From an uncultured Flavobacteriaceae bacterium (GTDB lineage Bacteria > Bacteroidota > Bacteroidia > Flavobacteriales > Flavobacteriaceae), in NCBI GenBank assembly GCA_905182295.1, contig CAJJAZ010000006.1, positions 124,001-188,000 of the forward strand: DNA of 64,000 nt, given 5' to 3'. The translations under genes were made by a program, and so were the position numbers. The notes beneath the pieces are model-generated. The model made no database searches. It had not been told where the DNA came from and saw nothing but the letters and a program-made list of their open reading frames with translations. Position 1 is the first letter of the stretch. Each line of letters starts with the position of its first letter. Below, piece by piece: positions 27,967 through 32,140 of this stretch.

Positions 27967-27974
27967 TATATTTG
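27967..27974 (+). promoter_or_regulatory. Candidate -7 element of the metal-uptake cassette
   Basis: TATATTTG on the plus strand ends 4 nt before the ATG at 27979, so the predicted transcript would be leaderless or nearly so. Confidence 0.45.
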
Positions 27975-27978
27975 AAAT

Positions 27979-28281
27979 ATGTTTACCACACGTGGAATAT
28001 ATGGGATCTTGTTTGTACTTCTTTTTTTCTTAAAAAGTAGTAGCCTACACGCTTATACCCATGACAACCACCACGCAGATAAAACAAGTCATTGCCAGAC
28101 CTGCGAGATCCAACAACTTCAGTCTCCTTTACTATTAGTAGCTGAAATAGATTCTATTGCTAACAATGACATTGTTGTTGTTTCCTCAAAGCATAGCATT
28201 CAAACACTTCCGCAAGTTTTAAAACATTCATTTTACACCAATATCTGGTCAAGACCACCCCCGTCTGACTATAATTCATAG
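27979..28281 (+). CDS. Small exported His/Cys-rich protein
   Basis: 100 aa with an N-terminal signal peptide (hydrophobic GILFVLLFFLKSSSLHA, residues 9-25). The mature N-terminus is rich in possible metal ligands: HDNHHADKTSHCQTCE. The C-terminus ends WSRPPPSDYNS. The combination of a CxxC next to His residues and a terminal R-PPP motif recalls small periplasmic proteins (DUF2946-like) encoded beside copper-related TonB receptors. That likeness is from memory and not proven. It precedes the receptor gene by 47 bp. Confidence 0.75.
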   Translation: MFTTRGIYGILFVLLFFLKSSSLHAYTHDNHHADKTSHCQTCEIQQLQSPLLLVAEIDSIANNDIVVVSSKHSIQTLPQVLKHSFYTNIWSRPPPSDYNS

Positions 28282-28288
28282 ATATTGA

Positions 28289-28305
28289 AGTGCTCCTTTA
28301 GCACT
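28289..28305 (+). other. Short hairpin between the exported peptide and receptor genes
   Basis: AGTGCT - CCTTT - AGCACT, a 6-bp stem with a 5-nt loop in the 47-bp gap before the receptor ATG. No T-run follows, so it is more likely a processing or attenuation element than a terminator, if it has any role. Confidence 0.35.
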
Positions 28306-28328
28306 AGTTGTAATTTGAATATGTATTC

Positions 28329-30710
28329 ATGAAATATACTTTATTATTGTTTATGGCGCTTGTATTGGCTACTGCCAATGCACAAGACTGCCACTTTGTC
28401 CTTCAAGGAAAGGTAATTGACCAACACGATGGAAAACCCTTAAAGGGGGCTATTATAGCTATTTACGGTCTCGAAAAAGAAGTATTTTCAAACGAAAATG
28501 GAGACTTTGTTATACAGGGATTGTGCGTAGGTTTTTATGAGATTGAAATCTCTCATATAGATTGTGGCACTCAATTTGTTCCCATTAAATTAGAGCGAAA
28601 TATAACCAAGACTTTCTACTTAGAGCATCATGTAGAAGCATTGAATGAGGTAGCGCTGATTAAGAAAGTCAATAATTTACTGGCACAGCAAACCATAGAT
28701 GCGACTGTTTTCGAAAACAAACTCAGTCAAAGTTTTGCAGAGGCACTCACTGAAATACAAGGTATTAATACCCTTAAGACAGGTAACTCCATAGCAAAAC
28801 CATTGCTTCAAGGAATGTACGGAAGTAGGGTGCTTACCAATAACCAAGGGGTTAGAATGCAGGATATGGAATGGGGTGCAGAACACGCGCCAAATATAGC
28901 TACTTCTAGTGTAGAAGGGGTATCACTTGCTGTTGGGGCAAAAGCGCTTAAATACGGTGGAGATGCTGTGGGTGGTGTGATTGTGCTAGATCCTAGAAAA
29001 CCTGTTTTTAAGAACAGACAAAAACACACTGCCATTTTTTCTGCTTATTCCAATGGTCTTGGTGTATTGAGCAGTCAAAAATTCGAGAAAGATTTTAAAA
29101 ATGGCCTTTTCTACGGAATTCAAGCCAGCTATAAAAAAGCAGGTAATAATCATAACGCCGCTGGTTACTTACAAAATACTGGATTAGAACAGACCAGTAT
29201 ATCTATTCCTTTTGGTTGGCATTTGGCCCACAAAGGAATAGATGCTTATATCTCTTATTTTAAAGCTAATAATGGTATCCTTAGGAATTCTCATATTGGC
29301 AACCTTCAAGATTTAATCAATCAAATTAATGGAGACACCGCTATTCCCATTGGGGATTTCACCTATAATATAGAAAACCCAAGACAGGATGTTTCTCATA
29401 TATTGACCAAAATTTCTGCCTATTACCATTTTGAAAATCTAGGTAGGTGGACCCTTCAATACGATTTTCAACAGAATAATAGAAAAGAGTTCGATGTAAG
29501 ACTTGGCGATAGAAATAAACTACCTGGAACAGATTTACAACTACAAACCCATGGTTTTCAATCTAATTTTAAATTAGACACCTCTTACGACAAAGTACTC
29601 GAACTCGGTGTAGAAACAGCCTATCAGACACATTTTCCAAATCCAGCGACTGGTGTAAAAAGACTTATACCAGATTACAATAGCTTAAATTTTGGGGCTT
29701 ATTTATACGGATTAAAAACCCTCTCTCCCTCATGGGAGATTGAAGGGAGTATAAGAACAGATAGGGTTCAAATTAAGGCAGATAAATTTTATAAAACCTC
29801 TAGATGGGAATCTTTAGGCTACAATACTGATTTTTTAGATTTTGTAGTTGCAGACTTTGAGACCCAAATTCTTACAGCGGCTAAATTGAACTTCAACACC
29901 CAATCTGCTGCGCTTAGTTTCCATTATAACCAACAAGGACACCGCGTTAGTACGCACCTTCAATATATAGAAAGAGCCCCTAATCCAGCGGAGTTATTTA
30001 GTGAAGGTCTACACCACTCTGCGGCAAGAATAGAACTGGGTTCTTTGAGAATGAGGAAAGAAAAAGCACATAAATTAGGGGTTCAATACAGCTATAGTTC
30101 TGATCAAAGAACTTTTTTACTGGCCCCTTATTTTAATCGCATAAACGATTTCATGGCACTTATTCCTTCTGGGCTAGAATTCACCATAAGGGGTGCGTTT
30201 CCAGTTTGGGAATACCAGCAAACCAATGCGAATTTCACTGGAGTAGATTTTAAATGGACAGAGCATTTTTCAAACGAACTAAAATTTACCAATGGGGCTT
30301 CTTTAGTGAAGGCTATTGACCTAAAAAACAATACACCCTTTCCAAACATCCCCCCTGTAAGTACCCAACACGAATTAGAATATTTGTTTAAGAATATCAA
30401 GGGACTTAGTGTTCAGTTAGCAGGGGAATACAATTTTAGGCAAAACGAAGTGCCTGAAGACTTAATGATTTTTAATCCATACACACAAAAAGAACAACTC
30501 CTAGAGATAAACAAAGCACCCAATGGCTATTTTTTGCTTTCTTCCCTAGTGGAGTACCAATTTCCCAAAAGCGGTACCACCCAATATAAATTGAGACTTA
30601 GCGGTGAAAACCTCACCAACCTTGCCTACCAGAATTACCTCAATAGGCTTCGCTATTTTTCCAATGAATTGGGAATAAACTTTCAATTACAATTGCAAAT
30701 CAATTATTAA
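28329..30710 (+). CDS. TonB-dependent outer-membrane receptor, probably for a metal
   Basis: 793 aa. Signal peptide (residues 1-18, ending ATANA-QD), then a carboxypeptidase-regulatory-like domain (CHFVLQGKVIDQHDGKPLKGA to about residue 95) with an unusual Cys pair, then the plug (LAQQTIDATVFENKLSQSFAEAL, RVLTNNQGVRMQDMEWGAEHAP), and a 22-strand barrel ending in the aromatic GINFQLQLQINY. The absence of a SusD gene and the small size argue against a glycan utilisation locus. Neighbouring His/Cys-rich peptide and acidic lipoprotein suggest a metal (zinc or copper) substrate; this is inference. Confidence 0.88.
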   Translation: MKYTLLLFMALVLATANAQDCHFVLQGKVIDQHDGKPLKGAIIAIYGLEKEVFSNENGDFVIQGLCVGFYEIEISHIDCGTQFVPIKLERNITKTFYLEHHVEALNEVALIKKVNNLLAQQTIDATVFENKLSQSFAEALTEIQGINTLKTGNSIAKPLLQGMYGSRVLTNNQGVRMQDMEWGAEHAPNIATSSVEGVSLAVGAKALKYGGDAVGGVIVLDPRKPVFKNRQKHTAIFSAYSNGLGVLSSQKFEKDFKNGLFYGIQASYKKAGNNHNAAGYLQNTGLEQTSISIPFGWHLAHKGIDAYISYFKANNGILRNSHIGNLQDLINQINGDTAIPIGDFTYNIENPRQDVSHILTKISAYYHFENLGRWTLQYDFQQNNRKEFDVRLGDRNKLPGTDLQLQTHGFQSNFKLDTSYDKVLELGVETAYQTHFPNPATGVKRLIPDYNSLNFGAYLYGLKTLSPSWEIEGSIRTDRVQIKADKFYKTSRWESLGYNTDFLDFVVADFETQILTAAKLNFNTQSAALSFHYNQQGHRVSTHLQYIERAPNPAELFSEGLHHSAARIELGSLRMRKEKAHKLGVQYSYSSDQRTFLLAPYFNRINDFMALIPSGLEFTIRGAFPVWEYQQTNANFTGVDFKWTEHFSNELKFTNGASLVKAIDLKNNTPFPNIPPVSTQHELEYLFKNIKGLSVQLAGEYNFRQNEVPEDLMIFNPYTQKEQLLEINKAPNGYFLLSSLVEYQFPKSGTTQYKLRLSGENLTNLAYQNYLNRLRYFSNELGINFQLQLQINY

Positions 30711-30729
30711 TTAAATTAAATCACATCTT

Positions 30730-31272
30730 ATGAAAAAGATTTTTACTACCCTATTTACCTTATCCTTATTTATGATATTTTTATCTTGTAGCGACAATGA
30801 CAGTCCAGAGCTCATCCAAGAAGAAGAAGTAATTACTTCCGTGATTGTGACACTTCAATCAGGAAGTAACACAGTTACTTTAAGCTCAGTAGACCTAGAT
30901 GGAGACGGGCCAAACGAACCTGTAATAACGGCTCAGGGCTCATTAAACTCAGACACTACTTATTCAGGTGCTGTTCGCTTTTTAAACGAATCTGTATCTC
31001 CAGTAGAAGATATTACAGAAGAAGTTGCAGAAGAAGCAGAAGAGCACCAAGTATTTTACTCATTTACTTCGCCTATCAGTTCAGTGGCTTCTTCGGATAC
31101 AGATTCAAGTGGAAACCCATTGGGACTCGTTTTCACTTTAACGACAGGAGATTCAGGAAATGCAACGTTTGGACTTACACTCAGACATAAGCCTAAAAAA
31201 CCAAACACAGGAATTTTAGATGCTGGTGGAGAAACAGATGTAGCCGTAAATTTTAGTGTTTCTGTTCAGTAA
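30730..31272 (+). CDS. Acidic lipoprotein of the TonB-receptor cassette
   Basis: 180 aa. Lipoprotein signal with LFMIFLSC (Cys21), then a strongly acidic region and a beta-rich domain. Notable segments are DLDGDGPNEPV, which resembles a Ca-binding loop, a run of acidic residues with DITEEVAEEAEEHQVFY, and HKPKKPNTG. From memory, close homologues are labelled type 1 periplasmic-binding-fold superfamily protein and regularly follow this receptor type. The gene begins 19 bp after the receptor stop. A surface or periplasmic metal-binding partner of the receptor is a reasonable guess. Confidence 0.82.
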   Translation: MKKIFTTLFTLSLFMIFLSCSDNDSPELIQEEEVITSVIVTLQSGSNTVTLSSVDLDGDGPNEPVITAQGSLNSDTTYSGAVRFLNESVSPVEDITEEVAEEAEEHQVFYSFTSPISSVASSDTDSSGNPLGLVFTLTTGDSGNATFGLTLRHKPKKPNTGILDAGGETDVAVNFSVSVQ

Positions 31273-31273
31273 A

Positions 31274-32140
31274 CTACTTTTTAAAACCACTTAGGTTTTG
31301 ACTTAAAAAGTCTTTTGGGAAATTTTCATCCCCATCAAACCCGAGGGTTAGGTGGGGATTTTTTTTAGGCACATAAGAAGTATTGAATAGGTAGTCCCAA
31401 ATACTTAAACTAATCCCAAAATTTACGCCAAAACGACCTTTAGGAAGTGATTTTGCATGGTGGTAAAGGTGCATTACTGGATTGTTAAGCACATATTTTA
31501 AAGGGCCCCAATCCAGCGCCAAATTAGCATGGTTTAAATGGCCAATAGTAATTGCAGCAAAGTGGATAATAAAAGCCTGACTGGGCTCAAACCCTCCTAA
31601 AAGCATAATAGCAATGGTTTTAAAAGGCTTGTATAATATATTTTCCATCCAGTGGTACCTCAAATGGGCTGCAAAGCCCATTTCCTTCACCGAATGATGC
31701 ACTTTGTGGAACTGCCATAGAAAAGGTGTTTTATGCAATAAAACATGGGTAAACCATTGAACAAAATCTAACAACACAAAGAAAATAAGCAATCCAAACC
31801 AATTTGGCAATGCTTGTATGTCTATAATGGATATAGCGTCCATACTTATTCCAACGTTTGAAAAAGCATTTGAAATTAAAGCATAAACACCACTGATAAC
31901 AACGGTGAATAGGAAGAAATTAAAGTACATATAGAATGCGTCTAACCAAAAGTCTTTTCTGAAAAAAGATTGGTTTTTTCTCCAAGGGAACAACATCTCA
32001 AGGCCCCAAATCACAAATGAAATGAGGGTTAAACCCCAAAAGTAATTTTGGTGCCATGGTACGTCGAATAACACAGACCTATAAAACCAATGAAGGCTCC
32101 CTGTCAAAGACTTTAAAACAATTTCAATTGCAGTGGTCAT
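31274..32140 (-). CDS. Sterol desaturase / fatty acid hydroxylase superfamily protein
   Basis: 288 aa membrane protein with about four hydrophobic segments and the di-iron His clusters of the family: HVLLHKTPFLWQFHKVHHSV (residues 132-151), GHLNHANL (about 208), and HLYHHAKSLPK (about 226). Such enzymes hydroxylate or desaturate lipids; the substrate in Flavobacteriaceae is unknown, but hydroxylation of a sphingo- or sulfonolipid chain would suit this genome. Convergent with the lipoprotein gene, leaving only one base between stops. A -7 box ends 4 nt before its ATG. Confidence 0.9.
   Translation of the reverse strand: MTTAIEIVLKSLTGSLHWFYRSVLFDVPWHQNYFWGLTLISFVIWGLEMLFPWRKNQSFFRKDFWLDAFYMYFNFFLFTVVISGVYALISNAFSNVGISMDAISIIDIQALPNWFGLLIFFVLLDFVQWFTHVLLHKTPFLWQFHKVHHSVKEMGFAAHLRYHWMENILYKPFKTIAIMLLGGFEPSQAFIIHFAAITIGHLNHANLALDWGPLKYVLNNPVMHLYHHAKSLPKGRFGVNFGISLSIWDYLFNTSYVPKKNPHLTLGFDGDENFPKDFLSQNLSGFKK

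Follow-up and report, generated by a model that had tools for sequence, protein, structure and literature searches.

Positions 27,979 to 31,272 of a 64,000-nucleotide stretch from an uncultured Flavobacteriaceae bacterium (contig CAJJAZ010000006.1, positions 124,001 to 188,000; the whole stretch is called the window here) encode, one after the other, a short exported peptide, a TonB-dependent receptor and an acidic lipoprotein. We consider it probable that these genes form a metal-uptake operon, most likely for zinc, whose expression is controlled by the nascent chain of the leading peptide. Metal uptake as the function of the cassette is well supported, and zinc is our best guess for the metal. 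The analysis is computational throughout, and consists of comparisons of sequences, profiles, folds and RNA folding. The original prediction for this locus had proposed a cassette that serves uptake across the outer membrane, probably of a metal, and this holds up well, with ZnuD as the nearest structure to the receptor and with paralogues in zinc-type neighbourhoods.

A recurrent three-gene cassette

The three open reading frames are consecutive on the forward strand, as predicted, and are separated by gaps of 47 and 19 nucleotides (Table 1). Recurrence of the gene set in Flavobacteriaceae had also been anticipated. Receptor relatives (E <= 1e-40) are found in 98 of 201 genomes of the family, sampled at nearly one per genus, and the lipoprotein occurs in largely the same genomes, adjoining the receptor; the cassette thus occurs in roughly half of the sampled flavobacterial genera. 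The neighbourhood survey that had been suggested as a check was run on 80 homologous loci from named genomes (Cellulophaga, Aquimarina, Polaribacter, Winogradskyella and others; loci carry L numbers below). An exported His/Cys peptide with an R/K-x-PP end lies immediately upstream of the receptor in 78 of them and the lipoprotein immediately downstream, on the same strand, likewise in 78, so the trio is not a chance juxtaposition. Its flanks are often syntenic housekeeping genes (serC, serA, DUF6787, FolE, an ATP-binding cassette (ABC) ATPase), and the trio is also kept in unrelated gene contexts, including loci in which receptor and lipoprotein have swapped order; even there the peptide gene comes first.

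Upstream of the peptide start lies TATATTTG, which fits TAnnTTTG, the -7 promoter element of Bacteroidota, and many loci have this element 12–15 nucleotides before the peptide ATG (12 in the window; upstream regions of L112-L191). This position suggests that mRNAs starting at the peptide are leaderless or nearly so. The element begins within 11–30 nucleotides of the ATG about 30 times in 61 peptide loci, compared with 71 times for 900 other genes. Because the element falls inside the peptide-receptor gap in only 1 of 78 loci, while one precedes the peptide in the window and in many other loci, a single near-leaderless transcript probably covers all three genes. A known riboswitch or other RNA family at the locus was rejected, since no Rfam family, cobalamin riboswitch included, scored above threshold there.

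The leading peptide and the predicted hairpin behind it

The window peptide has a hydrophobic, export-type N-terminus (its signal sequence was judged by eye), the segment HDNHHADKTSHCQTCE and the end ...SRPPPSDYNS, and it matches no Pfam family up to E 10. CxxC is present in 50 of 78 homologous peptides, and 77 of the 78 have a tail of the form R/K-[GAP]-PP (RGPP 33, RAPP 17, RPPP 15, KAPP 7, KPPP 5) situated 2–8 residues before the stop; RAPP or RGPP accounts for 50 of the 78. Among 842 other proteins of at least 100 residues from the annotated loci only seven carry such a tail, and all seven are similar exported His-rich peptides. The tetrapeptide RxPP is strongly avoided and induces translational arrest when x is G, A, S or P; in ApdA and ApdP its Arg is irreplaceable and RPPP is partly arrest-permissive (PMC12992588). 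CruR, a peptide of this kind from Bordetella pertussis, arrests at RAPP in vitro, and its CxxC-RAPP spacing of 45 residues is needed for function (PMC9426467). Among the relatives of the window peptide the corresponding distance is 43–54 residues, with modes at 45, the mode of one subgroup, and at 49–51; it is 49 both in the window and in a second relative of its peptide. Compared with the closest homologue, both termini are conserved (21/24 and 14/16), and the interior drifts (24/38) with no change in length. Lys-tail peptides (KAPP, KPPP or KPPS) occur in L116, L117, L123, L128, L139, L144, L146, L156, L157, L160, L182 and L189; here either Lys is compatible with arrest on the ribosomes concerned or the copies act in another way.

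The tail, the CxxC spacing, the conserved ends and the first position in the operon suggest a sensor that acts in cis and not a chaperone that is delivered. This departs from the original prediction, in which metal could pass between the peptide and the receptor. A stable, secreted metal-binding chaperone that delivers its metal to receptor or lipoprotein could account for the export-type N-terminus, the His/Cys-rich segment and the strict linkage to the receptor, but it leaves unexplained the C-terminal RxPP (PMC12992588), the CxxC spacing, the hairpin in the gap and the divergence of the interior between conserved ends. Moreover, mature CruR and CutF are reported to be short-lived, and we regard a chaperone as improbable. 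The peptide might instead monitor protein export or oxidative folding in the manner of SecM, with receptor synthesis tracking export capacity. Monitoring of Sec and YidC is what RAPP-type arrest peptides are best known for (PMC10987492, PMC10951233), and a CxxC could make a disulfide. This explanation seems quite improbable to us, however, given that no sec, yidC or dsb gene lies downstream and that the His/Cys-rich segment accompanies metal-type downstream genes in several paralogous operons. We therefore prefer a nascent-chain metal sensor, because of the RxPP tail, its spacing from CxxC, the leading position of the peptide and the hairpin in the gap.

Membership of the DUF2946 family was rejected, since neither the window peptide nor, up to E 1, four relatives gave a match. 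In a phylum survey only 5 of 148 Bacteroidota genomes had a DUF2946 match; a few Bacteroidota outside the family (L192-L196) have proteins near or above the DUF2946 cut-off.

The gap between peptide and receptor has an unusual propensity to fold. From the last peptide codons to the receptor ATG, the mean z score against shuffled sequences is -2.51 across 70 loci, 39 of which are below -2, as compared with 0.01 for the receptor-lipoprotein gap (n=21), -0.35 for the region before the peptide (n=31) and -0.84 for other co-directional gaps (n=213). The 5' arm of the predicted hairpin begins within the footprint of a ribosome stalled at RxPP in 64 of the 70 loci, and the 3' arm ends a median of 8 nucleotides before the receptor ATG. 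For the window and its two nearest relatives, the 18-base-pair hairpin retains 87% of its pairs with three two-sided changes, whereas slid registers retain at most 46%. In a RAPP subgroup the 5' arm consists of the Phe-Ser-stop codons, and this pairing would explain the conserved C-terminal Phe-Ser of these peptides; when tested for covariation, the stem of this subgroup proved conserved but too invariant to yield any. An inverted repeat TTCTTAA...TTAAGAA is seen in L145, L147, L154, L167, L169, L174 and others, with the 5' half as Phe-Ser-stop and the 3' half a few nucleotides before the receptor ATG. Direct base pairing between the RxPP codons and the start of the receptor gene did not exceed shuffled controls, with a small excess of cognate over permuted pairs, and our model does not need such pairing.

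The receptor, its proposed lipoprotein partner and the metal

The receptor carries CarbopepD_reg_2, an N-terminal carboxypeptidase-D-like domain of Bacteroidota, and a TonB Plug domain. As predicted, it has no SusD-like neighbour, and the lipoprotein gene gives no significant match to SusD or to any other Pfam family, so that the cassette does not look like a SusCD glycan system. A profile search of solved structures ranked ZnuD first (E 7e-31), followed by XusA, OprC (1e-23), Cir, PhuR and BtuB (about 1e-11), and ZnuD is also the top fold match (E 3.9e-39) of the AlphaFold model, which has a predicted local distance difference test score (pLDDT) of 82. The receptor is below the family threshold of the NCBIfam ZnuD model NF038289, scoring 39.9 bits against a cut-off of 950. 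The buried zinc site of ZnuD was reported as D90/H100/E340/H499 (PMC4557270). Our alignment suggests that the aspartate is D99, which adjoins H100, rather than D90. With a chain offset of 14, ZnuD H100 aligns with window H186, which is kept in 39 of 39 receptors of the window type (focal type) and in 8 of 8 of the sister type described below; H499 aligns with H562, kept in 37 of 39 focal-type receptors and replaced by Asn in the sister type. The residue preceding H186 is Glu or Asp, and the position of E340 could not be aligned. The copper ligands of OprC, which we take to be Cys and Met, fall on Glu181 and Glu185 of the receptor. Since the H100 and H499 equivalents are kept and the OprC Cys/Met positions are Glu, the ligand pattern favours zinc or another hard or borderline metal, although homology alone does not fix the substrate.

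An alternative that retains the architecture and regulation is that the metal is copper, the peptide being the flavobacterial counterpart of CruR and the receptor importing copper for oxidases. CruR responds to copper and is the leading gene of an operon that includes a TonB transporter (PMC9426467), CxxC is a copper motif, OprC follows ZnuD as the second nearest structure by fold, and the window has no zinc operator. On the other hand, glutamates occupy the OprC ligand positions, copper genes are not recurrent near focal cassettes, and sister cassettes and second peptides accompany zinc-type genes; copper thus appears rather unlikely. Import of haem, a siderophore or vitamin B12 seems very unlikely, even though the NCBIfam TonB-hemin model scores above ZnuD on the receptor (61 versus 40 bits, both far below cut-off) and ZnuD itself was formerly misannotated as a haem receptor (PMC4557270). 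ZnuD is favoured by profile and fold searches, the Rfam search mentioned above gave no cobalamin riboswitch or other family, and the partner is neither SusD nor a member of any described lipoprotein family.

The lipoprotein is very acidic, in line with the prediction, with a mature isoelectric point of 4.05. It starts with C20-SDND, and the C-S-D-D-D start found in 30 of 38 orthologues fits the Bacteroidota lipoprotein export signal (PMC5080379), so that the protein is probably surface-exposed. Invariant across the 38 aligned orthologues are the lipobox Cys, E33, Y78, E93, E98, E102, H106, L151, H153 and G167, and several orthologues (L086, L094, L099, L100) have His-rich inserts, as in zinc-binding proteins. 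The DxDGDG loop that had drawn attention is indeed present in the window and common among these lipoproteins, but it is missing from divergent orthologues; the conserved feature is the E/E/E/H plus H set, and a calcium-binding reading of the loop was rejected because the loop is not invariant. The lipoprotein model (pLDDT 88) is a beta-sandwich with no PDB fold match at E below 0.001, and no Pfam family scores above chance; the protein is a new family. By analogy with XusB and BtuG (PMC13142918), of which it is not a homologue, we propose that it is a surface metal-capture partner of the receptor.

Peptides of the same family elsewhere head sister cassettes that have a sister receptor, DUF4625 lipoproteins, MerC, a Fur-family regulator, a second FolE and a ZigA-type GTPase (564.6 bits, cut-off 600). 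Upstream of sister-cassette regulators and peptides lies the palindrome TGCAAC-N3-GTTGCA, which we infer to be a Zur box and a candidate Zur operator of Flavobacteriaceae. The palindrome recurs before Fur-family, MerC, peptide, ABC and lipoprotein genes (L053 12457-12513, L062 6517-6573, L067 6261, L094 10910, L055 2032). In L077 a focal and a sister cassette stand in tandem. L094 (G182:C12, 7479-10929) has the palindrome followed by a focal-type lipoprotein gene, a receptor that branches between the focal and sister groups, and a Fur-family gene with Zur as its best NCBIfam match, below cut-off; transcriptional control perhaps takes the place of the arrest peptide there.

Exported RxPP/KPPP peptides of a second family stand at the head of an ABC-2/DUF3526 transporter operon, which often lies immediately downstream of the focal cassette. 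In L071, L090, L092 and L127 such an RxPP peptide and an ABC-2 ATPase/permease set come after the focal cassette, and in L124 the set comes after it with no such peptide. In Caulobacter an ABC-2-type set beside a TonB receptor is Zur-regulated (znuK, znuGHI; PMC4176598). Neither ZnuA nor more than one Fur-family gene was found in genomes of the window's genus and in G104, with G000 only 61% complete. Kinship with the Leptospira LIC10965 family was rejected, the full-length match being very weak (E 0.08 and 0.33), and the reported expression of LIC10964/LIC10965 is a curiosity only. LIMLP_04825 is a Fur-like regulator and not a TonB receptor. A zinc study of Riemerella gives long lists of TonB genes.

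Table 1. Positions of the cassette, its proposed elements and further features (window coordinates unless a locus is given)
Feature	Position	Strand	Remarks
Exported peptide gene, 100 residues	27979..28281	+	Open reading frame; proposed metal-sensing arrest peptide, CruR/CutF-like upstream open reading frame
CxxC, C39-Q-T-C42	28093..28104	+	Sequence; after H24, H28, H31, H32 and H38; proposed metal site of the nascent chain
RxPP arrest-type motif, R92-P93-P94-P95	28252..28263	+	Sequence; five residues from the C-terminus; PMC12992588
Predicted hairpin, 18 base pairs, -9.8 kcal/mol	28270..28325	+	From the peptide's last codons to 4 nucleotides before the receptor ATG; proposed to close the receptor ribosome-binding region
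TonB-dependent receptor gene, 793 residues	28329..30710	+	Open reading frame, Pfam, profile, fold; ZnuD-like, N-terminal carboxypeptidase-D-like domain
Acidic lipoprotein gene, 180 residues	30730..31272	+	Open reading frame; lipobox; proposed metal-binding partner of the receptor
TAnnTTTG match	27967..27974	+	12 nucleotides before the peptide ATG; near-leaderless start
Convergent fatty-acid-hydroxylase gene	31274-32140	-	Next to folE; resembles ornithine lipid hydroxylase OlsE (83 bits, cut-off 475)
Second-family RxPP/KPPP peptides	L071 7133-7450, L090 11177-11566, L092 6212-6532, L127 9033-9323, L059 7475-7777, L061 7437-7736

Proposed mechanism and known systems

Building on the motifs, their conservation and spacing, the specificity and position of the gap hairpin, the gene order and the neighbourhoods, all of which the computational analysis shows, we propose the following model. 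Going by homology, the ZnuD-like receptor would bring the metal, whether free or in a chelate, through the outer membrane, and the surface-anchored lipoprotein may capture or gate it over the receptor via its conserved Glu/His set. Translation of the exported peptide would arrest at the C-terminal RPPP, with the CxxC/His segment just out of the ribosome tunnel. When metal is low, the stalled ribosome would keep the hairpin open, and receptor and lipoprotein would be made. Metal bound by the nascent CxxC/His segment would cause the chain to fold or be pulled, releasing the arrest; once the ribosome has left, the hairpin would close over the receptor start region, receptor synthesis would stop and uptake would cease. 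The polarity of this switch is modelled on CruR and its hairpin output on SecM and CutF (PMC9973294).

Several observations weigh against this model. Copper is the metal sensed by CruR and by most such peptides studied so far, the window peptide does not match DUF2946 (Pfam PF11162), and Lys takes the place of the reportedly irreplaceable Arg in 12 of 78 peptides. The window's own hairpin is only moderately stable relative to shuffles (z -1.5). A Zur-like operator at the window was rejected, since palindrome matches near its cassette are no more frequent than expected by chance; most focal cassettes lack a zinc-type operator as well, and the cassette of L094 has regulator and operator but no peptide.

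We put forward only tentatively the more specific possibility that zinc uptake throughout marine flavobacteria is controlled by an arrest peptide that senses zinc rather than copper and acts via a stall-gated hairpin at the receptor start, replacing Zur in streamlined genomes without Zur and ZnuA. If the model is true, a hypothetical three-gene cassette becomes a regulatory device in which a nascent protein senses how much metal is available and accordingly exposes or shuts the mRNA of the transporter that it serves. CruR/CutF-type control would then extend to a ZnuD-like receptor, probably for zinc, CruR-type sensing would be joined with a hairpin output of SecM/CutF type, and the lipoproteins would define a new family of metal partners in abundant marine bacteria. 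In the literature that we searched, we found neither the cassette nor its lipoprotein described, and likewise no connection with a ZnuD-like receptor and no hairpin in the gap. The original prediction knew of no described mechanism, but related ones are on record: CruR (PMC9426467), CutF (PMC9973294) and, from bioinformatics, RAPP/RGPP upstream open reading frames that precede TonB genes in Gram-negatives (PMC12992588).

Among known systems, CruR-BfrG/CrtA-BP2921 of B. pertussis (PMC9426467, PMC12914433) likewise comprises a short exported CxxC peptide with a C-terminal RxPP, a TonB transporter and a third gene, and CruR too is the first gene of its operon. The details differ, however. CruR is a DUF2946 protein with RAPP near its C-terminus where the window has RPPP, and its spacing of 45 holds within one or two residues, a range that excludes the 49 of the window but not the one subgroup of relatives at exactly 45. 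The Bordetella gap is 162 nucleotides long with copper-triggered Rho termination, compared with 47 nucleotides and a predicted hairpin here; its third gene encodes PepSY_TM rather than a surface lipoprotein, and the receptor here is of zinc type, unlike that of the CruR operon. CutF of Rhodobacter capsulatus and CutF-like proteins (PMC9973294) share the exported nascent sensor, the Cys motif, the proline-rich C-terminus and the stem-loop in the gap. Set against the filters used for CutF-like proteins, the window peptide has 100 residues, P93-P95 and a receptor 47 nucleotides downstream, and the stem-loop that covers the start of the following gene is in this case a predicted hairpin only. That CutF-like peptides are common in Bacteroidota, often before TonB genes, is already published as bioinformatics: 40% (normalised) come from this phylum, with TonB-type genes as frequent neighbours (PMC9973294). 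CutF turns a copper oxidase on with copper, however, whereas an uptake receptor is expected to be off with its metal. SecM, ApdA and ApdP (PMC10951233, PMC10987492, PMC12992588) resemble the peptide in having a C-terminal RxPP-type motif near the stop in a short exported upstream open reading frame, SecM also in its downstream stem-loop, but they monitor the secretion machinery, and the His/Cys segment here suggests a metal signal. ZnuD of Neisseria (PMC4557270) is nearest to the receptor in sequence and fold, with aligned H100/H499 zinc ligands; differences are a score far under the family cut-off, the extra N-terminal carboxypeptidase-like domain, the unalignable E340 and the lipoprotein partner. 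Finally, XusAB and BtuBG of Bacteroides (PMC13142918) also pair a TonB receptor with a downstream, probably surface-exposed lipoprotein, but the lipoprotein here is a small immunoglobulin-like beta-sandwich that matches no PDB structure (E below 0.001), solved lids included, and a metal ion is the probable substrate here, in place of a siderophore or B12.

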